In this document: positions 3,210 to 23,867 of the stretch, piece after piece
How the letters are laid out: every line of letters starts with the position of its first letter
Position numbering within the stretch: position 1 is the stretch's first letter
Assembly (NCBI RefSeq): GCF_030295325.1
Contig: NZ_AP027059.1
Location: 62,001-126,000, forward strand
DNA length: 64,000 bases
Origin: Haliovirga abyssi
Lineage (GTDB): Bacteria > Fusobacteriota > Fusobacteriia > Fusobacteriales > Haliovirgaceae
Direction of reading: 5' to 3'
Made by a program: the position numbers and the translations under genes
The notes under the pieces: model-generated
What the model saw: only the letters and a program-made list of their open reading frames with translations
Told to the model about the DNA's origin: nothing
Databases searched by the model: none

Positions 3210-3770
3210 TTGATAGCAGAGAAAGATTACTGCTTAGATAAAAGCTTTGAAATAAATAATAATAATTTTAATTCAATTAGAAATATAAAACATAAAACAG
3301 CATTAATGCTCATATATTCATGTGGATTAAGAATTAGTGAAGCAGTAAATATAAAGACAGCGGATATAAACATTGACAGAGGATTAATAAATATAGTAAA
3401 ATCTAAGGGAAATAAAGACAGAGTGGTAACTTTATCAAAACAATTTTTAATAAAACTAGAAGAGTATAAAAAGATATATAAACCAAAAAAATATTTATTT
3501 GAAGGAGGAAATGGGGTTGAAAAATATAGTACAAGGAGTATTCAATCAGTATTTAAAAAAGCATTAAAAGATGCAAATGTAAAAAGAAATTATACTGTAC
3601 ATAGTTTACGGCATAGTTATGCAACACATTTGTTAGAAAAAGGAACAGATTTACGCATTATACAAGAGCTATTAGGACATAAAAGTAGTAAAACTACAGA
3701 AATTTATACTCATGTAAGTAATAAATTGTTGGCGAAGGTGGTAGCACCATTTGATGATATTGAATTGTAA
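3210..3770 (+). pseudogene. Tyrosine recombinase, catalytic domain only (XerC/D-like)
   Basis: Translation from a TTG at 3210 gives 186 residues that cover only the catalytic half of a tyrosine recombinase. The full active-site set is visible: R41 in GLRISE, K64 in the beta hairpin, H131xxR134 in HSLRH, H157 in LLGHK and Tyr166 in EIYTH. The N-terminal core-binding domain is missing and an in-frame TAA lies just upstream (3198-3200), so the gene is 5' truncated. The extra patch that marks integron integrases between the kinase-like hairpin and the second His box is absent; the spacing is that of XerC/D-like enzymes. It reads in the same direction as the cassettes. It could be the relic of the enzyme that moved this array, or an unrelated Xer-type recombinase. 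Confidence 0.75.
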
Positions 3771-3841
3771 AATACGAAGTGATTTGCGTATATACAAACT
3801 ATATGGATGGATATGCGAAGGTTTTATGCGTGTATAAACGA

Positions 3842-3860
3842 GTTAGGCGAAACTCAAGTC
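3842..3860 (+). other. attI-like or attC R' boundary, start of first cassette
   Basis: GTTAGGC (3842-3848) fits GTTRRRY, and recombination would fall after the G. The 19 bases from here are the reverse complement, with one mismatch, of 6188-6206, which ends with the GCCTAAC box of the next attC. That pairing is expected between a cassette's 5' end and its own distal box. No full attC can be folded to the left, so this may be the attI of the array or a worn attC. Confidence 0.55.
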
Positions 3861-3928
3861 TAGGCTTAGTTTATGGATAATTATTTGTTAGAAATTAATA
3901 TTTAAAAAATAAGAGGAGAGTGAATTAA

Positions 3929-4663
3929 ATGAATCAAGATTTAAAAAGTATTATGCTTTCTTATATTGCAGGACTTTTGACTTCTGGAACGGTTGCATTT
4001 ATATCAAGAAAATGTAATTCTTTTGAAGAGTGCATTATGGCTTTAAAAATATTAGTAAAAGCAAGAAAAGAAGTCAGACTTAGTGTTTCATACTTATTTA
4101 GGATAGAAATTGAAAACAAGTATTTATTGATAAAAGGGAATAGAATTGAACAGTTTCAACCTGTTGGAGGGGTGTATAAAGCCTACAGAAGTGCCGAAGG
4201 TTTGTTTAAAAAAATTGAAGTAAAAAAAGATAACGGAATAGATATAGATGGAGCTAGTGAAAATGATTTAAGAATAAAAGTAAAGAGTAAAAATGTATTA
4301 AGTTTTATAAGGTGGTTTAAAGAAAGAAAAAATAGAGAAATTAATGTAAATAGAGAATTTTATGAGGAACTTGTAGTATCTAATTTTATTGATAAAAGTG
4401 TTCTTGAGACTTTTAGCCCTGAATACTTAAAAACAGTATACACTGATTTAAAATATTCGACACATTTTAAATGTTATGAGATTTTAATTTATGATATATT
4501 TGAAATTAAATTAGATAGTCAATATGAAGAAATGTTAAAAAACGAAATCAACACAAAAAGAGGAAATCTAATATTAGCTACAGATGATGAAATTGAAAGT
4601 GAAAACATAAAAATAGATGGCATATCTAAAAAAATTGGAGAACATAGTAAATATATAATCTGA
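3929..4663 (+). CDS. CBASS effector: membrane-anchored SMODS-associated NUDIX-like protein (Cap16-like)
   Basis: 244 residues. A hydrophobic helix at about residues 9-26 is followed by a short loop and a NUDIX-like domain: a beta segment RLSVSYLFRI, then KYLLIKGNRI and the hallmark QPVGGVYK (77-84). The canonical NUDIX box with its REXXEE helix is degenerate or absent, as known for the SMODS-associated NUDIX family. The gene lies 16 bases before a CD-NTase gene, and the pair fills one cassette. In CBASS, TM-NUDIX proteins of this kind are membrane effectors that respond to the cyclic nucleotide made by the partner; that role is transferred from the family, not shown here. RBS AGGAGAG lies before the ATG. 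Confidence 0.7.
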   Translation: MNQDLKSIMLSYIAGLLTSGTVAFISRKCNSFEECIMALKILVKARKEVRLSVSYLFRIEIENKYLLIKGNRIEQFQPVGGVYKAYRSAEGLFKKIEVKKDNGIDIDGASENDLRIKVKSKNVLSFIRWFKERKNREINVNREFYEELVVSNFIDKSVLETFSPEYLKTVYTDLKYSTHFKCYEILIYDIFEIKLDSQYEEMLKNEINTKRGNLILATDDEIESENIKIDGISKKIGEHSKYII

Positions 4664-4679
4664 TAAAAGGAGGGAAAAG

Positions 4680-6158
4680 GTGTTTATAGAATATGAAGAT
4701 ATAAATGATTTCTTTAATGAAATATCAAATGATTTAGATATTCCAGATTCTTACTATGAAAAAGCAGACAAAAGTTATAAATCACTTGGAAGTTTTTTGT
4801 TAAGAGATGATTCGTTAATAAAAGAGTATGCTCCAGATGTATTTCTGCAAGGTTCATTTAAGTTAGGCACAATGATAAAACCTATTTCAGAAAATATTCA
4901 TTATGACATAGACCTTGTTTGTAAGCTATCAAATATAAATAAAAATGAAATTACACAAGAAGATTTGAAGAAAAAAATAGGAAAAGAAGTTAAACAATAT
5001 GTAAAAACAAAAAATATGATAAACGAAGCTATAGATGGAAAAAGATGTTGGACATTAAACTACCACGATGAAGCACAGTTTCATATGGATATTTTACCTT
5101 GTCTAAATAACAGAAGAACATTTGAGGAACTTTTAGAAAAATACAGTATGAATACTGATTACAAGGAAGAAGCTATTGCTATTACAGATAAAAACTCAAT
5201 ATATTATAAAGTTATAAGCGATGAATGGGAAACCAGTAATCCTAAAGGGTATTATAGATGGTTTATGAAAAAAATGAACTTTGAAGATAAAAAAAGGAAA
5301 TTTGCGGAACAATTAATGGAAAGTGTAGAAAACATTCCAGACTATAAAGTAAAGACACCTCTACAAAAGGCAGCTCAAGTATTAAAAAGACATAGAGATT
5401 ATAGTTTTAAAGGAAAAAAAGATAAGCCTTCATCAGTTGTAATAACAACGTTATTAGGATTGACATATAATGGTTCGGAAAACATACTTGACATTATAAG
5501 TAATATGATTGAAAATATACATTTATTTTTAATAGAAAAAGATGGAAGGTATTATCTAACTAATCCTGTTAATCCATTAGAGAATTTTACAGATAAATGG
5601 AATACAAACAAGAAAAGAGCTTTTTTTAGATGGATAAATACGGTTAGTGAAGATTTGCTTTTTTACAATAAAAAAATTAATTATTATGGTGATAATGTTA
5701 TTGATAAAATGAAAGAAATATATAATATAAAGAAAAGCAAATATATAAAAGGTAGTAGTGAGTTGATAAAAAAAGAAAAGCATATAAAAAGAACAAAGTG
5801 GAATATGCTTAACAAAACAGAAGTTGATATAATAGCTTATAAAAAAGAGTCAAAAGATATTATTTCGAAGAGGTTTAAGAGTGGAGAAATTGTAAAAAAA
5901 AGTTCAGATTTAAAGTTTAAGGCAAATGCTAAAAATATAAAAGATTATGAAATGTTTTGGCGAGTAACAAATACTGGTTATGATGCAGAAATTGAGAACA
6001 ACTTAAGAGGGGATTTTTATGAAAGTGAAATTATAGAAGGAGATAAAGTAAGAGAAGAAAAGGCAAAATATTTTGGAAGTCATTTTATAGAATGTTTTTT
6101 GATAAAAGATAATGATTGCTATGGAAAAAGTGATGTATTTGTTGTTAATATACTTTAG
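4680..6158 (+). CDS. CD-NTase (CBASS cyclic-oligonucleotide synthase) with AGS-C sensor domain
   Basis: 492 residues, GTG start with AGGAGGG nearby. The N-terminal nucleotidyltransferase core shows GSFKLGT (58-64), the metal-binding pair D76/D78 in YDIDLV and the third acid D137 in FHMDIL. The middle is an OAS-like helical domain. The last 90 or so residues (FWRVTNTGYDAE, RGDF, then GSHFIECF and a final VFVVNI) match the adenylate/guanylate/SMODS C-terminal sensor domain. The enzyme should make a cyclic di- or trinucleotide on phage infection and activate the adjacent membrane NUDIX effector. No Cap2/Cap3 or HORMA/TRIP13 genes follow, so this would be a minimal type I CBASS. Which nucleotide it makes cannot be read from sequence. 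Confidence 0.82.
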   Translation: MFIEYEDINDFFNEISNDLDIPDSYYEKADKSYKSLGSFLLRDDSLIKEYAPDVFLQGSFKLGTMIKPISENIHYDIDLVCKLSNINKNEITQEDLKKKIGKEVKQYVKTKNMINEAIDGKRCWTLNYHDEAQFHMDILPCLNNRRTFEELLEKYSMNTDYKEEAIAITDKNSIYYKVISDEWETSNPKGYYRWFMKKMNFEDKKRKFAEQLMESVENIPDYKVKTPLQKAAQVLKRHRDYSFKGKKDKPSSVVITTLLGLTYNGSENILDIISNMIENIHLFLIEKDGRYYLTNPVNPLENFTDKWNTNKKRAFFRWINTVSEDLLFYNKKINYYGDNVIDKMKEIYNIKKSKYIKGSSELIKKEKHIKRTKWNMLNKTEVDIIAYKKESKDIISKRFKSGEIVKKSSDLKFKANAKNIKDYEMFWRVTNTGYDAEIENNLRGDFYESEIIEGDKVREEKAKYFGSHFIECFLIKDNDCYGKSDVFVVNIL

Positions 6159-9163: not shown

Positions 9164-10186
9164 ATGAATTCCCTAGCAAAAAAACACTTTTTTGAAACAT
9201 TTCCAAATAAGCATTTTCAAGAAGAATTTTCTAATGTTTATGCATATGGAATTAAAGAACAGATTAATTCAGGTAAATTAACAGAGGAAGATATGTATGT
9301 AGATACACTAGAAAATTTCTATTTAAGAGTAAAAAATAGAAGTTTAAACTATAGTAATGATTATCTAACGGATATTTTACTTGAGAAAATCTTTCACAAC
9401 ATTCCTCAAGAAATTTCTAAAGAAATCACTAATACTTTTGTTGGAGTTAGTGTATTCGATTCTTCGCTTAACGCATATGCTTATCAACAATTTGACGACA
9501 GTAGTTATTTAATTGTGTATACGACTAGCTTGATGAATAAAATTTCAATAGTCTTATGCATTATAACTTGCTATATCTGTGAAAGAAATTATCATTTCAA
9601 TTTAAACACTTTAAAAGAGTTATTTCTAGAGCAATTAACTTCTGATTATAACGAAATGATTAATATTCAAGAAATTATCGACGACCTACTAAAAACTAGT
9701 TTAATTCATGTTAGAGAAGATTTTGACAGAATTTTTGGAAAATTACACGAATATTCAACTTGCTTTGTGTTAGGGCATGAAATAGGACATCATTTCTTTT
9801 TACATACTAAAAATATTGACTTAAAAGAGAATCTTAATATTTTATCAGAAAATATTAAAAATAACCACATTAATGAATTATATTGCGATAAATTCAGTGC
9901 TTTTATAACATTTGAGACTTTTGCTAAAGACCAAAAAAATTCTGCTTTGGAGATAATCGGAATCGTATCAGCACTCTTAGCATTAACTTTAGAAGAAAAT
10001 TTTTACGAACATTCTACAACACATCCATCTTTTAAAAATCGATTTGATATGGTTTTTAATTATTTTAATGAGCGTTTTCCAGATTATAAACTAAAAGAAC
10101 ATATAAGTGACTTTTTTCTTTGTTGTGATTTGTTTTATGATAAAGATTTTTTAGATGATAGATGGTGGGAAAATTACTACAGCTAA
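9164..10186 (+). CDS. HEXXH zinc metalloprotease-like protein
   Basis: 340 residues. HEIGHH (205-210) gives the two zinc ligands and catalytic Glu of a zincin, and E238 in NELYCDKFS, about 33 residues downstream, fits the third ligand in the ExxxD context of M48-like peptidases. A hydrophobic segment at 126-141 may touch the membrane. The His-box segment and the later THPSFKNRFD motif (T/S-x-HP-xxxxR) are typical of integral M48/peptidase-U49-like enzymes. It follows the membrane-hairpin gene in one cassette, and the R'' box of the attC overlaps its stop codon. Defence or toxin action is plausible but not shown. Confidence 0.72.
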   Translation: MNSLAKKHFFETFPNKHFQEEFSNVYAYGIKEQINSGKLTEEDMYVDTLENFYLRVKNRSLNYSNDYLTDILLEKIFHNIPQEISKEITNTFVGVSVFDSSLNAYAYQQFDDSSYLIVYTTSLMNKISIVLCIITCYICERNYHFNLNTLKELFLEQLTSDYNEMINIQEIIDDLLKTSLIHVREDFDRIFGKLHEYSTCFVLGHEIGHHFFLHTKNIDLKENLNILSENIKNNHINELYCDKFSAFITFETFAKDQKNSALEIIGIVSALLALTLEENFYEHSTTHPSFKNRFDMVFNYFNERFPDYKLKEHISDFFLCCDLFYDKDFLDDRWWENYYS

Positions 10187-10242
10187 CACAACATCAACTG
10201 ACATGAAAATCACACGTCAGTTAGGCTGAAATAACGTTATGT
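10181..10242 (+). other. attC site 4 (short)
   Basis: R'' AGCTAAC (10181-10187) overlaps the protease stop codon; arms AACTGAC (10196-10202) and GTCAGTT (10216-10222); R' GTTATGT (10236-10242). At 62 bp it is the shortest site. R'' complements the 5' box at 8482. Confidence 0.8.
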
Positions 10243-10292
10243 GCAAGACAAAGTCAAAATCTAGACATAGAATAATAATAAGGAGAAAAAAT

Positions 10293-11579
10293 ATGAAGAA
10301 AAAAGTAGATTTAAATATAAAAAGCATTTTTTACAAAGGAGAATTTTTGGTAATTAATGCAGAATTTATAAATAATGATAACATTATTGCCTTTAATTTT
10401 AAGGATATTTATATAAAAATAATAGGGAAAAATGGAGATGATGTTGTTACAACTATTATTAATGGAGAAAACTTAAATAAATTATTATTAAAAGCAAATG
10501 AGAAAAAAGATTGGATATTTGAAGTTGAAAACCCAAATTATACTGATATTAGTAAATATAAATGGGAAACTAATTTACAATTCCTTTTTAAGGAAAATAC
10601 GTCAGAAACAGAAGAAATTGAAAATGAAAATAGTCAGACAATAACTAATATAGAGAAAGAAGGGGAAAGTTTAATGGAAGAGGGAAAAAGCACAATAAAA
10701 AGTAAATTTGAATATGATGTTGCGTTTTCATTTGCAGGAGAAGATAGAAAATATGTAGAAAAAGTTGCAGAACAACTAAAAGATAAAATAAATATATTTT
10801 ATGATAAATTTGAAGAAATTGATTTGTGGGGGAAAAATTTATATACGCATCTTAATGAAATATATAGTAAAAAATCAAAATATGTTGTTATGTTTATTTC
10901 AGAGCATTACTCAAAAAAATTATGGACAAACCATGAGAGACAAAGTGCTCAAGAAAGAGCATTTAATGAGAATAAAGAATATATTTTACCTGCAAGATTT
11001 GATAATACAGAAATTCCTGGTGTCCTAAAAACAGTTGGCTATATAGACTTAAAAAAGATTGATGAAATTGAATTTTCTAATATAATTCTGAAAAAAATTA
11101 AAAAATACAAAGAAGAGGAAGTTCCTGAGAAAAATTCAAAAAAAAATGAGAAAAATATATCCTTAAATCAAAAAATATATAAATCAGATATTGAATTGTA
11201 TAATAAAATTAAAGAAATCATAAAAAATAGTGTGGAATTTTCTAAAGATTGGGATTTCGGGTCACCGCACAGGGATAATAGTTTGAATGGATTGTTCCAC
11301 ATAGAATTACAATTTGAATCGCCAGATTTTGAATTTATTAATGAAAAACTTGAAATTATTAAAAAAGAATTATTTGAGTCTATAAAAAAATTTATCTTAA
11401 GTGTTTCTATTAATACTTTTCCAAAAGGAAATGGTTTTCAAGAGATTCCTTATGAATGGAGTTATGAACAACCAGAATTATTTGAGAAAACTAGAAATGA
11501 AATAAATTCTTTAGCTGATGAAATGTGGAAGAAATACTGTAATTTTGTAAAAATGGGAAGAATTTGTTTAGAGCTATAA
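10293..11579 (+). CDS. TIR-domain protein
   Basis: 428 residues from the ATG at 10293, chosen because AAGGAG precedes it; an upstream ATG at 10239 overlaps the cassette boundary. Residues 1-100 form an unrecognised beta-rich domain. A TIR domain spans about 140-255: YDVAFSFAGEDR, FYDKFEEIDLWG, YVVMFISEHY and WTNHERQSA with E215 at the place of the catalytic NADase Glu, then ILPARFD. The C-terminal part (about 310-428) is charged and unassigned. It is the only gene of its cassette. TIR proteins in prokaryotes often degrade NAD or make NAD-derived signals in abortive infection, and TIR genes of this class are known as single-gene cargo; activity here is inferred. Confidence 0.85.
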   Translation: MKKKVDLNIKSIFYKGEFLVINAEFINNDNIIAFNFKDIYIKIIGKNGDDVVTTIINGENLNKLLLKANEKKDWIFEVENPNYTDISKYKWETNLQFLFKENTSETEEIENENSQTITNIEKEGESLMEEGKSTIKSKFEYDVAFSFAGEDRKYVEKVAEQLKDKINIFYDKFEEIDLWGKNLYTHLNEIYSKKSKYVVMFISEHYSKKLWTNHERQSAQERAFNENKEYILPARFDNTEIPGVLKTVGYIDLKKIDEIEFSNIILKKIKKYKEEEVPEKNSKKNEKNISLNQKIYKSDIELYNKIKEIIKNSVEFSKDWDFGSPHRDNSLNGLFHIELQFESPDFEFINEKLEIIKKELFESIKKFILSVSINTFPKGNGFQEIPYEWSYEQPELFEKTRNEINSLADEMWKKYCNFVKMGRICLEL

Positions 11580-12704: not shown

Positions 12705-12920
12705 CAATGTCATCAAGCTAAGGATTTTATAAAAACTCTACTCCTCCCTTGTTGTAGGTTTCTCTTATCTAAGAGAAACCTATAGCGTGGATATTTGGCT
12801 TTTTTAATGCTTTTTTCTCAATATTCTGCACTTTAGTTTTCTCTTAGCCAAGAGAAAACGCTAAGAAGGAAGGAGTTGGTCTTTTGATTTGCATTAATTC
12901 CCCTTAGCTTGATGACATTG
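12705..12920 (+). repeat. Miniature inverted-repeat element copy 1 (IS4/IS231-like ends)
   Basis: Perfect 19-bp terminal inverted repeats: CAATGTCATCAAGCTAAGG at the left and its complement at the right end (12902-12920). A 10-bp direct repeat AACTCTACCT flanks it (12695-12704 and 12921-12930). No transposase; the 216-bp interior has two hairpins built on CTCTTA/TAAGAG. The ends resemble those of IS231/IS4-family elements, which also make 10-12 bp duplications; that assignment is from memory of the family. Confidence 0.8.
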
Positions 12921-12934
12921 AACTCTACCTACAG

Positions 12935-15000
12935 GTGCGTGACTGGTAACGGTTGGGTGCTAAGCTGTAGGGACAATATGAATAATCTGTTAGCCTATAG
13001 GCGGAGGTTTTGTTAGAGTAAATATATTTCTATGGTTAACATATGTGAACTAATGCAAGCTTCGTTAAACGTGGGCAGTGAAATAAGGCTGATACACTGT
13101 GACCAAAAGGTGTAAGATGTGGTTGATAGTCTTTTTCGTACCTATCAACAAATGGACTAATATCTTCGGAGTAAAGTTAGAACCTAAGGAAATATGAATT
13201 GGCTAAAATGTAGAACTGGGTAAGCCCTACAGTCTCTCATTTGAGTAGGTTTTCTGTGAAGAGAATACAATGATTGGAGAGTAAAGGAACAGTAGAGAAA
13301 GCGAATGACATTTTGTAATGAAATGTATAGAGGTTCGAAATTTGCCTCATTCTGAAAGGAAGCATGGTTATCTAAGGCAGGAAAGGATTGAAACTTTATA
13401 AATATAACAAGCCAAATAACTCAAAATCATAAGGAGTGGGCGACTATAGACAGACCAGAAGCAACTTTCAAATGGGAAATAATTGATTGAACAGAAGCCG
13501 GAAGAAAAGTTAGTAAACTTCAATCACGGATAGCTAAAGCAATTATTAAAGGTAAAAATGCTCTTGTAAAGAAATTACAATACTTACTTACAAAATCTTA
13601 CTATGCAAAATTATTAGCAGTAAAGAAAGTAACATCAAATAAGGGAAAAAGAACATCAGGAGTAGATAAAGAAATATGGTCAACTCCAGCCCTTAAGTAT
13701 ATCAACGCCCAAAAATTAACTAACAAGAAATACAGGGCAAAACCTCTTAAAAGGATATTAATACCGAAATCCAACGGAAAAACAAGACCTTTGGGAATAC
13801 CAACTATGTTTGATAGAGCAATGCAAGCATTATATTCATTAGCATTAGACCCGATATCAGAAAGCACAGCAGATAAAAACTCTTATGGATTTAGAAAATG
13901 TAGAAGTACAAACGACGCAGCAGATCACATTTTCAAATGTTTAGCAAAAAAGGACTCTGCTCAATGGATTTTAGAAGGTGACATAAAGGGGTGCTTCGAC
14001 AATATAAATCATAAATGGATTATTGATAATATACCATTAAATAAGAAAATTTTAAAACAATTTCTTAAAGCAGGATTTATATACAAGAAAGATGTCTTTC
14101 CTACCAAAGAAGGAACACCTCAGGGTGGAATAATCTCCCCCATCTTAGCAAATATGACGTTGGATGGTATTGAAAAAATGATTAAACTAAAATATTGGAC
14201 AAGCCCAAGTGGAAATTCGATTAACAGAAAATATAACAGCAAAAATCGAATAAACTTTATTCGATACGCTGATGACTTTGTTGTAACTTCAAGAAGCAAA
14301 GAAATACTTGAAGACATAAAATCAATGATAAAAGAATTTCGTGAAACTAGAGGCTTGGAGCAATCAGAAACGAAAACTTTAATAACTCATATTGATATTG
14401 GGTATGACTTTTTAGGTTTTAATTTCAGAAAATACAAAGGGAAATTATTAATTCAACCATCAAAGAAATCAATTAAGAATATTGTTAAGAAGATAAAATC
14501 CGTTGTTAAAAAGCATACTACTTCAAATCAAGATGAATTGATAAAATCATTAAATCCAATAATAAGAGGCTGGTGTAACTACCATAATAGTATCTGCTCA
14601 AAATTAACCTACCAAAAATTAGATAGACACATTTTCTTTTATCTGTGGAGATGGGCAAAACGAAGACATCAAGATAAGTCTAAGCAATGGATAAAAGATA
14701 AGTACTGGAAGACTATTAGTACTAGAGATTGGATATTTTCTGATGGAGAAAACAAGTTAATGTTTGCAACAGAAACAAAAATAATCAGACATTGTTTAAT
14801 TAAAGGTAACGCAAATCCTTATCTAAGAGAATATGATGATTACTATTAAAAGAATTGCTGCGAAGATAAGAGCATATATTTAATTTATTATTGTTGCCAA
14901 TTTGAAAGTTGGTTTTAGATAGCTTGAGCTGTATGACGTGAAAGTGTCACGTACAGTTCTGATGGGGGAAGGGCGAAGTAATTCGCCTGACCTACCAGAC
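12935..15000 (+). mobile_element. Group II intron 2
   Basis: Starts with GTGCG (12935), the canonical 5' end, four bases after the flanking repeat of the miniature element. Domain V is clear at 14926-14959 (GAGCTGTATGACGTG, GAAA-type loop, CACGTACAGTTC) and a domain VI stem leads to CTACCAGAC at 15000, the likely 3' end. About 500 bases of ribozyme precede the reading frame. It encodes a nearly complete reverse transcriptase that carries one in-frame TGA. It differs from intron 1 in sequence and ORF type, and its insertion point is not an attC box. Confidence 0.8.
13443..14849 (+). pseudogene. Group II intron reverse transcriptase with in-frame TGA
   Basis: The frame is continuous from about 13443 to 14849 except for a TGA at 13488-13490, at the place of a conserved Trp in the N-terminal EIIDWTEAGRKV-like motif; no good ATG precedes it. 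Downstream are all RT blocks: GVDKEIWS, RPLGIPT, GFRKCRST, WILEGDIKGCFD (first catalytic Asp), TPQGGIISPILAN, FIRYADDFV (catalytic pair), DFLGFNF, then the maturase X domain with IIRGWCNYH. The protein stops at NPYLREYDDYY, where related proteins continue into an HNH domain, so that domain is absent. A product could only start internally (ATG 13800 or so), lacking RT motifs 0-1. Confidence 0.8.
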
Positions 15001-15111: not shown

Positions 15112-16530
15112 GTGATACCAAAATGTCAAATATTTACACCATTAGAATATGTAACAAAATTACTTGATATTGCTGAATATAAGGAGTTTTTATATGGTAA
15201 AAAAATATTAGAAAATTCTTGCGGAAATGGTAATATATTAGTTGAAATAGTAAAAAGGTATATAGCTGATTGTATTGAAAAAGGATTTTTGCTTGATGAA
15301 ATAAAGAATGGGTTAGAAAATGATATTTATGCTTTTGAAATTGATTTAGCTCATTCAGAAGAGTGCAAGAGAAGGCTTAATGAAATTGTTAATTTTTATA
15401 ACATATATGAAGTGAAATGGAATATAAATAATAATGATTATTTAAAAAATATAGATAATCAAAAATTTGATTTTATAATTGGAAATCCACCCTATATTAT
15501 GTACAAAGAGTTAGATAATGAAACTAGAAAATTTTTAAAAGAAAAGTATAAAGTTTGTGAAAATGGAAAATTTGATTATTGTTATGCTTTCATTGAGAAA
15601 AGTATAAAAGATTTAAAAACTAATGGAAAAATGTCTTACTTGATACCTGGAAGTATTTTTAAAAATGTTTTTGGTAAGAATTTAAGAAATTTTTTATTAC
15701 CCCATATTAATGAAATTTATGATTATTCAGAAAAAGCATTATTTACTAATGTTTTAACTTCATCAACGATATTAAATCTTGAAAAGGATAGCAATAATGA
15801 TGAAATTATTTATCATAATATTATTATGGAGAATTCAAAAAAAATTCAAAAAATAAAATTAGGAGAAAAATGGATATTTCATAATATAAAATTTTCTTCT
15901 TCTAAAAAGAAATTTGGAGATTACTTTAAAGTTTCTAATAGTGTAGCAACTTTGTCGAATAAAGTCTTTATAATAGATAAATATGAGGAAGTTGATGAAA
16001 ACTATATAAAAGTTGAGGAGTTTTTAATAGAAAAAACTTTATTAAAAAAAGCAGCAAGTCCAAAAGGGATGTCTAAAAATAAAAATGAATATATAATTTT
16101 TCCGTATTATTATACTAATGAAAATAAAATTAAAAGGTACTCAGAAGTTGATTTTGTAAAAAGATTTCCAGAAGCCAAAAAATATTTAATTAGTAGAATA
16201 GAAGAATTGGAAAAAAGAAAGTCTGATAAAAATTCTTCTTGGTTTGAATATGGAAGAAGTCAAGCTTTAAATCATTTAAATCAAGACATGTTAATATTAT
16301 CATCAATAATAACAGGAAATGCTAAAATATATGATATTGATAAAGAATATATTCCATATTCAGGATTTTATATTACTAAGAAAGATAAATATGGACTTGA
16401 AGTTGCAAAAGAAAATCTTATGAGTAAAGAATTTTTAAACTATGTTAAAGGTATTGGTATTAGTGCTAGTGGAAATTCAAAAAGAATTACAGTAAAGGAT
16501 ATAGCAGAATTTCCATTATTTAAAATATAA
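15112..16530 (+). CDS. N6-adenine DNA methyltransferase (Eco57I/type II-like)
   Basis: 472 residues, GTG start behind TTGGAGG. FTPLEYV at the N-terminus, motif I LENSCGNG (33-40) for SAM binding and motif IV NPPY (125-128) for adenine flipping are clear. The remainder has the mixed helix/strand pattern of a target-recognition domain ending in SGNSKRITVKDIAEFP. It lacks a fused nuclease domain. It is the first gene of a tight four-gene operon (14 bases to the GHKL gene) with an HNH nuclease at the end. Hence it is likely the modification arm, or a sensor of modification state, of a restriction-like defence module. Confidence 0.82.
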   Translation: MIPKCQIFTPLEYVTKLLDIAEYKEFLYGKKILENSCGNGNILVEIVKRYIADCIEKGFLLDEIKNGLENDIYAFEIDLAHSEECKRRLNEIVNFYNIYEVKWNINNNDYLKNIDNQKFDFIIGNPPYIMYKELDNETRKFLKEKYKVCENGKFDYCYAFIEKSIKDLKTNGKMSYLIPGSIFKNVFGKNLRNFLLPHINEIYDYSEKALFTNVLTSSTILNLEKDSNNDEIIYHNIIMENSKKIQKIKLGEKWIFHNIKFSSSKKKFGDYFKVSNSVATLSNKVFIIDKYEEVDENYIKVEEFLIEKTLLKKAASPKGMSKNKNEYIIFPYYYTNENKIKRYSEVDFVKRFPEAKKYLISRIEELEKRKSDKNSSWFEYGRSQALNHLNQDMLILSSIITGNAKIYDIDKEYIPYSGFYITKKDKYGLEVAKENLMSKEFLNYVKGIGISASGNSKRITVKDIAEFPLFKI

Positions 16531-16559
16531 TTTACGGCTTTATTTTGGGGAGGTTATTT

Positions 16560-18713
16560 GTGAAGAAATTATTATTTACTATAGAAGATAAAGCGATTGC
16601 AGAATTATTTGGAAGACAAAACTTTAGTACAAAAGAATCTGCAATATTTGAATTGGTAAAAAATTCATATGATGCTGGTTCAAAAGAATGTATTGTTGAA
16701 ATAAAACAAACTGAAAACGAAGAGTTTATAAAGATTATTGATTTTGGTTGCGGGATGAATGAAGAAGATATTAAAAAAAATTGGATGCATGTAGGAAAAA
16801 GTAATAAAGGTTACATTGATGAAAAAATATCTAAGAGAGTGCTAGCAGGAGCAAAAGGTGTTGGAAGATTTGCTTTAGCTAGATTAGGAGATGAAATAGA
16901 AATGACTTCTCAGAAATTAGATAGTTATCCTATTATTTGGAAAACAAATTGGGAGTCATCTTCAATTTTAAACTTACCTAATAAAATTAAGTCTGGAACG
17001 GAAATAAAAATTAAAACTTTAAGAGAAAAATGGAAAGAAAAAGATAAGGATAAATTAATTGAATTTTTGAGTAGAGCATATTATGGCAATGAAATGAAAA
17101 TTTCAGTTATTTATAACGAAACAAAGGAAGAAGTACAAGAATTATTTTCTAAATTAAAAATGGGGATAAATTATACAAGCAAAATTTTATTAGATTATGT
17201 ATCAGAAGATAATACTTTGAATATTGAAGTAGTATCAGATGAGTTTAAAAAAGAAGTACAAGAAATTTCTAATGATTTCAATATTTTGAATTTTAATATG
17301 ACTAAAGATATGAGTGAAGAGCTTAGTTCTAATATATTAAAAGAAGAATTTACAAAAGAAACTTTAACAGATGTAGGAAGTTTTAAAATGGAGTTATATT
17401 TTGCTATGGATAGAGTTCCAGTAGATGCAACAGAAAAATTTATGTATAAACATGGAACTTTAATTGATCCAATAAAGTCTGGGATAATTTTATATAGAAA
17501 TGCATTTAGTATTTCGTCACTAGAAGGAAAAAAAGATTGGATTGGATTAGGAGCAAGAGCAAGAAAATCACCTGCAGCAGCAACCCATCCTACTGGAGCA
17601 TGGAGAGTTCGTGCAAACCAATTATCAGGGTTCGTTCAAATTGATAAAAAGAGGAATAATTTTTTAATAGATTTAGCTAACAGACAAGGGTTAGAAGAAA
17701 ATGAATATTATGAATCTTTTTTAAAAATAATTGACTCAGGAATAAAAGAATTTGAAAGATATAGACAAAATATTATTCGTGTAATAGATAAAAAAAATAA
17801 ATCTTTGACTGAACTTGAACCCAAAAAGACAAAAATAATGGATCGTTTTATAAAAAATCCAAAGATAATTGAAAGATTACCTAAAAAAGATATAAAAAAA
17901 TTAGCTACTGAGATGGAAACTATAAAAAAGACAGTAACTCAGCAAACAAAAGAATCTAAAGAAAAAGAAGCAAGATATAAATATGATGTTAGAATATTAA
18001 ATTCTTTAGCAACTCAAGGATTAAAAGCTGGAGCAACTGCTCATGAATTTCATGCAGATAGAAATAAATTAGCTAAAGGGACAACTCTTATTATAGATGC
18101 ATTAAAAAAATATGAGTATTGGGAAGAATTAAAATCCCCAGATAAGACTAAATTTGCTTATGCTAATGTTCCACAATTGCTTTTAAGTCTTGATAAAATT
18201 AATAAAAAATTAGGTATTTTTTTAGATACAATATTAAAGAAAATGAAAAAAGATGCTTTTACTTCTCCAATAAAATCATTAGAAAAAGAATTAAAATTTA
18301 TTATTAATAATTGGAAAAAAGATTATGAGTGGTTAGAAATAAAATTAAATGGAAAAAACATAGAATTAGATAAATATTCTTTTACTGCAGATGTATTAGA
18401 TGTAATATTTGATAATTTAATTTTAAATAGTATACAAAATAATCAATTAAAAGATAAATTAATTATAGAAATAGATTATTTAATTAAAAATAATGTTATT
18501 AATTTTAGCTATAAAGATAATGGAATAGGATTAAATAAAAAGTACTTAAAAAATCCATTTAAAATACTAGAAGTACATGAAACATCTAGAAAAGATGGAC
18601 ATGGACTAGGGATGTGGATTATTAACAATACCCTTCAAATGTATGGAGGTCAAATTGATAAAATATTAAATGATGATGGATTTAAATTAGAATTTCAATT
18701 TATTGGAGGTTAA
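16560..18713 (+). CDS. Double-GHKL protein: MORC/Hsp90-like ATPase fused to histidine-kinase-like half
   Basis: 717 residues from the GTG at 16560 (GGGGAGG upstream). The N-terminal GHKL ATPase has its N box (E31, N35 in ELVKNSYDAG), DFGCGM (61-66) and GAKGVGRFA (97-105), as in MORC/MutL/Hsp90 relatives, followed by a transducer-like domain to about 360. A helical coiled linker (400-475) leads to a DHp-like helix with GATAHEFHADRN (H495 or H498 as possible phosphoacceptor). It ends in a second, histidine-kinase-type ATPase: FDNLILNSIQNN (N box), DNGIGL (653-658) and HGLGMWII (681-688). Three bases on lies a receiver-domain gene, the expected partner. Prokaryotic MORC-type ATPases are known to neighbour restriction-modification genes. 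Confidence 0.8.
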   Translation: MKKLLFTIEDKAIAELFGRQNFSTKESAIFELVKNSYDAGSKECIVEIKQTENEEFIKIIDFGCGMNEEDIKKNWMHVGKSNKGYIDEKISKRVLAGAKGVGRFALARLGDEIEMTSQKLDSYPIIWKTNWESSSILNLPNKIKSGTEIKIKTLREKWKEKDKDKLIEFLSRAYYGNEMKISVIYNETKEEVQELFSKLKMGINYTSKILLDYVSEDNTLNIEVVSDEFKKEVQEISNDFNILNFNMTKDMSEELSSNILKEEFTKETLTDVGSFKMELYFAMDRVPVDATEKFMYKHGTLIDPIKSGIILYRNAFSISSLEGKKDWIGLGARARKSPAAATHPTGAWRVRANQLSGFVQIDKKRNNFLIDLANRQGLEENEYYESFLKIIDSGIKEFERYRQNIIRVIDKKNKSLTELEPKKTKIMDRFIKNPKIIERLPKKDIKKLATEMETIKKTVTQQTKESKEKEARYKYDVRILNSLATQGLKAGATAHEFHADRNKLAKGTTLIIDALKKYEYWEELKSPDKTKFAYANVPQLLLSLDKINKKLGIFLDTILKKMKKDAFTSPIKSLEKELKFIINNWKKDYEWLEIKLNGKNIELDKYSFTADVLDVIFDNLILNSIQNNQLKDKLIIEIDYLIKNNVINFSYKDNGIGLNKKYLKNPFKILEVHETSRKDGHGLGMWIINNTLQMYGGQIDKILNDDGFKLEFQFIGG

Positions 18714-18716
18714 AAG

Positions 18717-19343
18717 GTGAATAAAAAAGAAATAATAAAAATATGTTATATTGATGATGATTTTGATGTTCAATTATCAAAATATTTAGTAGAAAATTAT
18801 ATAGTTGATAAAAAGGATAATATTGAAATAGATTATAGCGAATATAAATTTAATACAGAGGATAATTATAAAAAATTATTAAAAAAAGATATTGTAAAAC
18901 AAGCAAATATTATTCTTATTGATTCAAGGTTATTCGAAAATATGTCAAATAAAAAAACTAAATTCACAGGAGAAAAGTTTAAAATAATTTTAAGACAAAT
19001 TTATCCTTTTATTAAAACAGTTGTAATTAGTCAAAATGAAACAACTGAGGAATCTTCTGTTGTTAGTAAATTTAAACAAGCAGAGAGTAAAGGAATAAGT
19101 TTTGTTGAGCATTATGATGACAATTTAAAAAAAATATTAGATGAAAATATAAAGTTTATTTTAGAAGAAAGAAAAACTTTAGAAGAATTAAATGATGATG
19201 AATTCATTGATGAATTATTATTAGAAACAATAGATAAAACATTTAATGGATTAGAATCCTATTCTGAATTTGAAAAAAAGGAATTAGATAATTTGATAGA
19301 AGTTTTTGAAGAAGTGAGGTCTCATTATGATAATCAAAAATGA
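18717..19343 (+). CDS. Receiver-domain (response-regulator-like) protein
   Basis: 208 residues, GTG start three bases after the kinase-like gene, preceded by GGAGG. The receiver fold is legible: acidic cluster DDD at 13-15 in ICYIDDDFD, candidate phosphoacceptor D69 in ANIILIDSR, and S105 in TVVISQNE at the Ser/Thr switch position. The usual switch Lys before the last strand is not evident (KGISFVEHYDD). The C-terminal 70 residues are acidic helices with no DNA-binding motif. With the upstream histidine-kinase-like half it forms a candidate phosphorelay, perhaps gating the HNH protein, whose start overlaps its 3' end. Confidence 0.72.
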   Translation: MNKKEIIKICYIDDDFDVQLSKYLVENYIVDKKDNIEIDYSEYKFNTEDNYKKLLKKDIVKQANIILIDSRLFENMSNKKTKFTGEKFKIILRQIYPFIKTVVISQNETTEESSVVSKFKQAESKGISFVEHYDDNLKKILDENIKFILEERKTLEELNDDEFIDELLLETIDKTFNGLESYSEFEKKELDNLIEVFEEVRSHYDNQK

Positions 19344-19962
19344 TTATAGAAATACTTCATATACTTTGGTAGATTTTTCTATTGATGATAAAAAAGAAAA
19401 GTTTATGAAAGAATTTAGGAAAAAACATAAAAGGGCAAAAAATGTATATACAATAGTTAAAGAAAAGCAAAATGAATTTAATAGACCATTTAGAGAAATT
19501 TATAATAATAGATGTGTTTATTGTGGTGTTACAAATCAAATAATTACAGATTCTAATTTTGAAGTAGACCATATCTTTCCAAAATCAAAAGAAGGAGAAA
19601 CTTCAATTAATGTAAATGGAATTGATAATATAGCTTCAGCTTGTAAAACTTGTAATCGAGGAAAAAGTGATTATACTTGTAAGGATGAAAATTTTGATAA
19701 AATAAACCCTGATAAAAACTTTCTTCCACATATATTTTTTAGAGAAAAGGATTATTCGATTCAAATAAAAACTGATTATATTTTAAATGATGATATAAAG
19801 GCTTTATATAATGCTCTTGAATTTGGAACACAACTTAGAAGAATAGATTATTTAGTTATGCAGTTAAAAGACTTTTGTGAAAAATATTCAGAGGAATCTA
19901 TTATTGAAAAGATGAATAAAATTATTTCAAAATTAGAACAAAATCGTAGAGAAATATATTAA
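19327..19962 (+). CDS. HNH endonuclease
   Basis: 211 residues; its ATG lies 17 bases inside the previous gene, showing translational coupling. The nuclease core is complete: C63xxC66, DH at 81-82 in VDHIFPKSKEG, N101, then C106xxC109N and K113, so a zinc-knuckle HNH fold. The C-terminal 90 residues are helical, without a known domain. As last gene of the methyltransferase/GHKL/receiver operon it is the likely cutting arm. A strong terminator follows 16 bases after the stop. Confidence 0.85.
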   Translation: MIIKNDYRNTSYTLVDFSIDDKKEKFMKEFRKKHKRAKNVYTIVKEKQNEFNRPFREIYNNRCVYCGVTNQIITDSNFEVDHIFPKSKEGETSINVNGIDNIASACKTCNRGKSDYTCKDENFDKINPDKNFLPHIFFREKDYSIQIKTDYILNDDIKALYNALEFGTQLRRIDYLVMQLKDFCEKYSEESIIEKMNKIISKLEQNRREIY

Positions 19963-19978
19963 TATAGTTAAGATAAAA

Positions 19979-20001
19979 GCTGGCTTTTCTAGCCAGTTTT
20001 T
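19979..20001 (+). terminator. Terminator of the four-gene operon
   Basis: CTGGCT and AGCCAG arms (19980-19985 with 19991-19996) around TTTCT, followed by TTTTT. Confidence 0.85.
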
Positions 20002-20066: not shown

Positions 20067-20097
20067 GCCAAGCCCAGTTCTTAGCTTGATGACATTG
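20067..20097 (+). repeat. Miniature element copy 4, right end only
   Basis: GCCAAGCCCAGTTCTTAGCT followed by TGATGACATTG matches the right end of copies 2 and 3; the left end is absent. It sits next to a CTATAAC box (20034-20040) in what looks like a broken attC. Confidence 0.65.
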
Positions 20098-20104
20098 ATC
20101 CTTC

Positions 20105-20203
20105 CGCTAACCTTGAGGTATATAAGATATACAAATCGGCCTTAACGTGATAGGACTAAGCTCACCAAGCTCTTCGCATCATATTACCGTGGAACCATTA
20201 CAC
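20105..20203 (+). other. attC site 7, mutated R' box
   Basis: R'' CGCTAAC (20105-20111), then GAGGTATATAAGATATAC...AATCGGC, very like the left half of site 1, and ATCATATTACC as the right arm. R' reads ATTACAC (20197-20203): the invariant G is A. TTACACGA still complements the R'' of the next site (21333), which shows this is a true cassette boundary. Confidence 0.65.
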
Positions 20204-22658: not shown

Positions 22659-22762
22659 AATATGTACCTTTGATGGACATGTCAAGAGAATGTGGGCGTT
22701 TTTTTTATTTTTCTGGACCTATTTAAAAATATGGGCAAAAATGGTATAATTAGGTACATATT
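22659..22762 (+). promoter_or_regulatory. Promoter with flanking inverted repeat before the Fic gene
   Basis: TATAAT at 22745-22750 with a weak upstream TTTAAA at 22722-22727. The 11-mer AATATGTACCT (22659-22669) and its exact complement AGGTACATATT (22752-22762) bracket it, a likely operator pair for a dimeric regulator, possibly the Fic protein's own winged-helix domain. The cassette thus brings its own promoter. Confidence 0.55.
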
Positions 22763-22781
22763 GATTAGGAGGGATTTGAGC

Positions 22782-23867
22782 ATGAAAATAGATTTAGAGA
22801 AACCTTTTAACGAATTACCATTATTATCACCAAATATTCAATTAGAAACGATTAATATTTTAAAACAATTAGCAAAATCACATAAAGCTCTTGCTGAATT
22901 AAAAGGATATTCAGAACTTATACCTAACAAAGATATTTTAATAAACTCTATTATTTTAAAAGAAGCAAAGGTTAGTTCTGAAATAGAAAATATCGTTACT
23001 ACTCACGATTCAATATACAAAGCTTTAGTTTCAAAAGAAACTTTTATTGATAGAAATACAAAAGAAGTTTTAAATTATCGTTCTGCTATTTGGAAAGGAG
23101 TTTCATTAATTAAAGAAAATGATATTCTAACTACGAATATGATAATTGAAATTCAAAAAGAACTTGAAAAAAATGATGCAGGAATTAGAAAAGTTCCAGG
23201 AACATCGTTAAAAAACGATAAAACAGGAGAAGTAATTTATACTCCGCCAAGTGGTGAAGCTATAATTATGAACTTAATGTCTAATTTAGAAAAATACATT
23301 AATCAAGATTCTGATGTTGATGATTTAATAAATATGGCAGTAATTCACTATCAATTTGAATCTATTCATCCGTTTTATGATGGAAATGGTAGAACTGGAA
23401 GGATAGTAAACGTACTTTTCTTAGTTTTAAAAGATTTACTAGAAAGTCCTATTTTATATTTAAGTAATTATATTATTAAAAATAAGTTTGATTATTATAA
23501 GTTATTACAAGAAGTTAAAACAAATGGAAACTGGGAAGAATGGATTATTTTTATGTTAAAAGCAGTTGAAGAAACATCCATAGAAACATTAAGCATGATA
23601 AGAGGTATTAAGGATTTACTTGATAAGACAATTGAAGATGTAAAAGAAAAAGCACCTAAAATATATAAAAAAGAATTAGTTGAATTATTATTTTATCATC
23701 CGTACACAAAGATTTCTTTTTTGGTTGAAGAAGGCTTTGCTGCTAGAAAAACAGCATCATTGTATTTAAAAGAATTAGAAAGTATAGGAATATTAGAAGG
23801 AATAAAAATTGGAAGAGAAACAATATATATTAATAAAAAACTATTTGAATTATTGAGGCAAAGTTAG
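22782..23867 (+). CDS. Fic-family AMP transferase with winged-helix C-terminus
   Basis: 361 residues from the ATG at 22782, which has GGAGGG upstream; longer in-frame starts fall in the promoter. The N-terminus carries the inhibitory helix motif (S/T)xxxE(N) as S65-E69-N70 in VSSEIEN, making it a class II, self-inhibited Fic. The catalytic loop HPFYDGNGRTGR runs 196-207 with His196 and Arg204 in place, and the flap (VIYTPPSGEA) precedes it. The last 80 residues form a winged helix (KELVELLFYHPYTKI, RKTASLYLKELE). It is the only gene of its cassette. It should transfer AMP to a target protein and may bind its own promoter. Confidence 0.88.
   Translation: MKIDLEKPFNELPLLSPNIQLETINILKQLAKSHKALAELKGYSELIPNKDILINSIILKEAKVSSEIENIVTTHDSIYKALVSKETFIDRNTKEVLNYRSAIWKGVSLIKENDILTTNMIIEIQKELEKNDAGIRKVPGTSLKNDKTGEVIYTPPSGEAIIMNLMSNLEKYINQDSDVDDLINMAVIHYQFESIHPFYDGNGRTGRIVNVLFLVLKDLLESPILYLSNYIIKNKFDYYKLLQEVKTNGNWEEWIIFMLKAVEETSIETLSMIRGIKDLLDKTIEDVKEKAPKIYKKELVELLFYHPYTKISFLVEEGFAARKTASLYLKELESIGILEGIKIGRETIYINKKLFELLRQS

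Follow-up and report, generated by a model that had tools for sequence, protein, structure and literature searches.

Gene content and surroundings of the locus

Four co-directional genes on the forward strand occupy positions 15112-19962 of the window, the 64,000-nucleotide stretch of Haliovirga abyssi DNA analyzed here, and an open reading frame check assigns them to a methyltransferase (MTase), a 717-aa kinase, a receiver and an HNH nuclease. The first gene (15112..16530) encodes a 472-aa N6-adenine DNA MTase of the Eco57I class (PF07669) with motif I and NPPY. It is followed by a soluble dual-GHKL sensor kinase of 717 aa (16560..18713; PF13589 and PF02518), by a stand-alone divergent receiver of 208 aa with a C-terminal helical extension (18717..19343; assigned from a family profile and an AF2 model), and by a 211-aa HNH nuclease with zinc-ribbon cysteines (19327..19962; PF01844). 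A TTG start for the kinase gives 722 aa and an MTase-kinase gap of 14 bases, the value given in the initial annotation. The GTG at 16560 sits behind GGGGAGG and produces an N-terminus that agrees with those of relatives; with the start placed there (717 aa), the gap becomes 29 bases, and only the other two reported spacings, 3 bases between kinase and receiver and -17 between receiver and nuclease, stand as given. A Rho-independent terminator-like hairpin with a T run (19979..20000, forward strand) comes right after the nuclease gene, where the initial annotation had placed a terminator; the terminator search found 2 such sites versus 0.5 expected. No promoter rose above chance level at the four-gene locus. 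Just 3' of the terminator lies an element of about 30 bases (20070-20105), with 12 further dispersed near-copies on both contigs of the genome.

A tyrosine recombinase and then a CBASS pair are found upstream (3210-6158), the pair comprising a CBASS 2TM/SMODS-associated NUDIX effector (3929-4663) and an SMODS/AGS_C cyclase (4680-6158). Between these genes and the cassette are a 340-aa protein with a HEIGHH metalloprotease-like motif and weak matches to CapP and peptidase U41 (9164-10186), and a 446-aa TIR-domain protein (10239-11579; PF13676 2.9e-18; PADLOC PDC-S66), which is probably a further defence gene. A group II intron (12908-15000; Rfam D1-D4 and domain V) ends about 110 bases 5' of the MTase gene; its maturase open reading frame (13791-14849) starts late, and the intron may therefore be truncated. 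Downstream lies a Fic protein of the SoFic family (22692-23867; PADLOC SoFic 6e-118). The four-gene locus lies in a defence island (CBASS, TIR, SoFic, integrase). The enrichment in such islands that the initial annotation had proposed to look for is seen among relatives in its direction: at 1e-15, 191 PADLOC models are matched by 133 cassette neighbours versus 22 by 133 recA-region proteins (20 genomes), and as these are redundant counts of models (one HsdS triggers dozens), the comparison gives a direction only.

The sensor kinase and the receiver

The window kinase matches HATPase_c_3 (PF13589, 9.7e-18) and HATPase_c (PF02518, 2.4e-15) in Pfam, and both domains are present in all 59 aligned kinase relatives. 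The structure prediction that the initial annotation had called for (AF2; pLDDT 83.7, pTM 0.61) shows a head, a middle domain, a long helical stalk, a DHp-like hairpin and a C-terminal ATPase. The N-terminal GHKL ATPase head (aa 1-200; 16560..17159, forward strand) carries E31, N35, D61, G63, G65, K99, G100 and G102, which are invariant in 57/57 aligned kinases. The S5-like middle domain (aa 200-380; 17157..17699, forward strand) is recognized by conserved E228, R313 and R375 and by the fold search. The stalk and DHp-like hairpin (aa 382-561; 17703..18242, forward strand) are defined by the structure model, with helices at 382-419, 442-500 and 537-561. The C-terminal HATPase_c catalytic domain (aa 570-715; 18267..18704, forward strand) contains N and G boxes (N619, N623, G655, G680, G682, and G684) that are likewise invariant (57/57). 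Two GHKL sites in a single 717-residue protein, as first read from the letters, are thus borne out by both the Pfam matches and the invariant residues.

Two histidines in the DHp-like region, H495 and H498, had been put forward as candidate phosphorylation sites. In the alignment, H495 (18042..18044, forward strand) is a histidine in 57/57 kinases and is the predicted phospho-acceptor, and the residue after it is always acidic (Glu in 54, Asp in 3). Position 498 is a histidine in only 8 of the 57, so H498 is not the phospho-acceptor. Residues 497-505, just after H495, have a pLDDT below 50, and nowhere is the model less confident than in the DHp stretch. The features of a canonical two-component kinase are present, namely the predicted phospho-His with its adjacent acidic residue and the N and G boxes of the CA domain.

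The head had also been described as MORC-like, and this label is withdrawn. The MORC S5 motif GhXhhpXXRhl (PMC2292703) occurs in 0/76 family members, and membership of MORC proper was rejected on that ground; the nearest solved folds to the kinase model are the N-terminal and middle domains of Hsp90. The features of paraMORC in the broad sense are present: an S5 domain behind intact GHKL motifs, in a restriction-modification (R-M) neighbourhood.

The receiver is recognizable mainly through its family. In single-sequence searches, the window receiver has no significant match in Pfam, NCBIfam or PADLOC and nothing convincing in the PDB, and Response_reg (PF00072) is matched weakly by 39 of 82 aligned receiver relatives. 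The family profile matches receiver structures that include PhoP and VraR (best natural match PhoP, 5.6e-7). In the AF2 model (pLDDT 85.4), strands and helices alternate and a helical extension comes after them; among solved folds it is closest to the response regulator VraR (E 1.4e-4), with low overall TM-scores. D69 (18921..18923, forward strand), the predicted phospho-aspartate, is Asp in 80/80 receivers, positions 13 and 14 of the 80-member alignment are Asp or Glu, and position 105 is Thr or Ser in 80/80, in agreement with the D69 and S105 singled out in the initial annotation. K118, the Lys of β-5, is Lys or Arg in 80/80, which rules out the loss of this residue that a 5-sequence alignment had suggested for fusobacterial receivers. 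The canonical receiver features (receiver fold, acidic pair, Asp, Thr/Ser, and Lys) are thus present. Beyond the receiver fold there is only the helical extension, and no DNA-binding domain is recognized by Pfam, among relatives or in the AF2 model.

These residues bear on a reading in which a GHKL-driven DNA clamp forms a complex with the nuclease, in the manner of MutL or MORC, and the His-Asp chemistry is vestigial, serving as a timer or scaffold. The strong conservation of the N-terminal GHKL-S5 region would suit such a clamp, and GHKL ATPases are known to act with nucleases: in VcSduA, activity is lost when either the ATPase or the nuclease is mutated (PMC12137116), and a similar partnership has been deduced for R-M operons (PMC2292703). 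However, H495, E496, D69, the acidic pocket, T/S105 and K118 are all fixed across phyla, which would be unexpected of vestigial chemistry, and we regard this reading as quite unlikely.

A conserved cassette with an exchangeable methyltransferase

At least 215 kinase relatives were found (one genome per species), of which the best 80 were taken; 32 relatives came from viral contigs. Loci were scored with family profiles built for the kinase, receiver, HNH nuclease and MTase, as the initial annotation had suggested for the four-gene neighbourhood. There are 84 distinct loci with a full-length kinase and a family HNH, and 76 of these are complete; each of the 76 has its kinase, receiver and nuclease genes consecutive in that order with the MTase abutting. 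The other 8 miss a scored gene, and judging by coordinates most of them are cut off by the end of a contig or carry a frame break. Where scored, the MTase is upstream in 34 loci and downstream in 44. The overlap between the receiver and nuclease genes has a median of 4 bases. Neither receiver-HNH nor kinase-receiver fusions were seen among the relatives, so it is gene order, gene overlap and co-divergence that connect receiver and nuclease, and the HNH could act by itself.

If the two-component pair does control the nuclease, a stand-alone receiver beside an effector fits an inhibitor equally with an activator. Under an inverse logic, a resting kinase would keep the receiver phosphorylated and the HNH restrained, and infection would let the phosphate decay and free the nuclease; loss of ATP, host shut-off or a phage inhibitor could be the trigger of such an abortive or guard-type response. 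The conserved parts would be identical in both cases, but the inverse logic leaves the ever-adjacent MTase unexplained and is considered unlikely.

The window nuclease matches HNH (PF01844) in Pfam at 1.9e-10. C63, H82, N101, C106, N110, K113 and R139 are invariant in 62/62 nucleases, which confirms the full HNH core noted at first sight (H82, N101, N110, C63, and C106). The family profile resembles the HNH domains of Cas9, PtuB and retrons, and there is no evident recognition domain in the protein. Five viral HNH proteins fall in the score range of the family (184-215 bits), and all five adjoin a kinase and a receiver; the kinase-based search had also found these five contigs. The other viral HNH proteins listed score at most 51 bits, and none adjoins a kinase and receiver.

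The window MTase matches Eco57I (PF07669) at 1.8e-23, and NPPY is kept in 49/50 aligned MTases. Its family profile gives full-length alignments with the structure 7lni (1.1e-51), which we take to be CamA, and with M.BseCI (7qw5, 3.8e-41). The C-terminal and catalytic halves of 31 close MTases are about equally conserved; the enzyme carries its own target-recognition half. Pairwise identities of kinase, receiver and HNH correlate with one another at 0.92, 0.88 and 0.84, versus 0.43 for the MTase. Of the 241 pairs whose kinases share at least 45% identity, 44 (18%) have MTases that are at most 30% identical, and none has HNH proteins less than 22% identical. Conversely, MTases up to 63% identical accompany kinases that are only 25% identical. 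Kinase, receiver and nuclease co-diverge and the MTase does not, which makes the triad a unit and the MTase its exchangeable part. Such an exchange should be harmful if the HNH had a fixed target site. The simplest inference places the sequence specificity in the MTase, and its specificity is probably the sole sequence recognition in the four-gene set.

R-M systems need their expression timed, and this need counts in favour of a reading in which the two-component genes control how an ordinary type II R-M pair is expressed, with the receiver acting in transcription or timing and the HNH as a sequence-specific enzyme. HEF_HK/Response_reg_2 pairs have indeed been proposed to control R-M systems (PMC8011034). 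On the other hand, the receiver is without a recognised DNA-binding domain, and the MTases are exchanged and the HNH is not, which a restriction enzyme of fixed specificity would not tolerate. These data make control of expression very unlikely.

The hosts of the cassette belong to the Bacillota, the Bacteroidota, the Pseudomonadota, the Fusobacteriota (the order of the window) and others, with one spirochaete, and copies also occur on plasmids and viral contigs. The order kinase-receiver-HNH-MTase is found on a Bacteroides and a Salipiger plasmid, and two genomes from the same order as the window share the order MTase-kinase-receiver-HNH, with kinases 44-46% identical. Within the phylum, 3 of 98 genomes have the cassette and the other 95 gave no match. 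A role in housekeeping or epigenetic regulation, such as repair or phase-variable methylation, might be suggested by the closest solved MTase, CamA, which is a solitary enzyme with regulatory roles; but the patchy distribution, the carriage on plasmids and viral contigs, the defence-island context and the constant nuclease partner make such a role highly improbable.

Known systems and a proposed mechanism

The association of two-component pairs with R-M genes has been described before. HEF_HK kinases and Response_reg_2 receivers were linked in 91.6% of 644 regions and are enriched beside R-M genes, conspicuously C5 MTases; a paraMORC origin and a direct or indirect control of R-M systems were proposed (Bellieny-Rabelo et al., 2021; PMC8011034). 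Like the present kinase, HEF_HK (PF19191) combines HATPase_c_3, a DHp-like region with a His-Glu-Phe-type motif and HATPase_c, and it is accompanied by an adjacent divergent receiver (PF19192) and by R-M neighbours that include HNH proteins and MTases. This architecture (HATPase_c_3, DHp His, HATPase_c, adjacent receiver, and R-M genes) is present here. The published pairs differ in that their main partners are C5 cytosine MTases and Vsr, and that paper describes no fixed set of four genes in which an N6A MTase and a dedicated HNH take part. PF19191 has no match at the locus in the window genome and is absent from the families of 59 kinase relatives; the record of one relative holds a weak match (16.8 bits versus a cut-off of 24.1). 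The curated cut-off of PF19192 is not reached by the window receiver or by any relative scanned. Membership of HEF_HK/Response_reg_2 was rejected because both Pfam models stay below their curated cut-offs in every member scanned. A relative with a C5 MTase on a C. jejuni plasmid is also below the cut-off for both.

ParaMORC ATPases were earlier placed in R-M operons, with HNH partners for paraMORC1 (Iyer et al., 2008; PMC2292703). paraMORC1 resembles the present kinase in its GHKL-S5 ATPase with a conserved C-terminal extension, its R-M context and its occasional HNH, and the MORC-specific motif is missing in both; in that account, by which the two are compared, no kinase module or receiver is described for paraMORC1. 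Detocs, an ATP-degrading defensive two-component system of three genes whose best-described effector is a PNP (PMC11249213), shares the anti-phage idea resting on two-component signalling, and no MTase, GHKL-S5 head or HNH is named in that description. The four-gene locus encodes no PNP or other ATP-degrading effector, and its sole effector is the HNH nuclease. VcSduA (GHKL Shedu/paraMORC3) also joins an N-terminal GHKL ATPase to a nuclease in defence, but it is a single protein with a PD-(D/E)xK nuclease, without kinase, receiver or MTase (PMC12137116).

Type II R-M and type IIG systems likewise have an MTase and a nuclease in one operon, and the present MTase is near M.BseCI and CamA. In contrast to these systems, an extra kinase and receiver are always present here, and the nuclease keeps constant partners while the MTases are exchanged; the HNH shows no recognition domain, and the exchange of MTases speaks against a fixed matching of specificities. 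The HNH nucleases of Septu (PtuB) and retrons, similar by HNH profile, have ABC-type ATPases as partners, whereas no such ATPase partner belongs to this four-gene set. PADLOC reports only generic MTase_II, REase_II (GHKL) and HNH at the locus and no model set of a named system, and no name for the set was found in the open-access literature, in keeping with the first impression that no named system has exactly these genes. A two-component pair with a GHKL head beside R-M genes was already published in 2021, and GHKL with HNH in 2008; the cassette is apparently a widespread, unnamed variant of this partly described theme.

We lean towards an R-M-like system against foreign DNA in which a cytoplasmic His-Asp phosphorelay gates the action of the nuclease, an account that is somewhat probable. 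From the sequences we infer the phosphotransfer, the contact between receiver and HNH, the sensed signal and defence itself. In the proposed mechanism, the MTase would mark host DNA at its own site. The kinase, a putative dimeric GHKL-S5 clamp (like Hsp90 or paraMORC) that a helical stalk connects to a DHp/catalytic kinase, would respond to a sign of foreign DNA, which is most likely to be either unmodified DNA or a stalled MTase. ATP-driven closure of the clamp could then lead to autophosphorylation on H495, and the phosphate would pass from H495 to D69 of the receiver, which, once phosphorylated, may activate its partner HNH nuclease via the helical tail. A more specific version, in which specificity resides in the swappable MTase, the clamp kinase reads unmodified or MTase-engaged DNA and the receiver turns on a non-specific HNH, is advanced tentatively as a possibility; it would allow new specificities to be gained simply through an MTase swap. 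The defence reading of the initial annotation persists through the conserved, mobile R-M-like module, the defence island and the intact His-Asp residues, and has shed its MORC wording and H498.

Restriction is usually viewed as hard-wired, with the enzyme cutting any site that lacks the mark. If the proposed mechanism is correct, a two-component relay would stand between sensing and cutting and make restriction a regulated decision. It would also explain how one nuclease tolerates many MTases, and give a role to the GHKL ATPases whose presence near R-M genes has long been puzzling.

In the kinase tree, a branch with an SH-aLRT of 99% sets apart the loci that bear the family HNH; the only two unlabelled rows on their side are a locus in which the HNH is split and another that breaks off within the receiver at the end of its record. 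The nearest kinase to that of the window is from Fontibacillus (Bacillota), ahead of the two genomes of the same order, which indicates horizontal transfer. On the other side of the branch, a C5 MTase and a longer receiver are often found, without the family HNH. These sister lineages (L012 and L101-L125, including plasmids and viral contigs) often combine a C5 MTase with a dual-GHKL kinase and a receiver, and their receivers are mostly 300-370 aa long, with a C-terminal half that forms an unrecognised domain and is possibly another effector.
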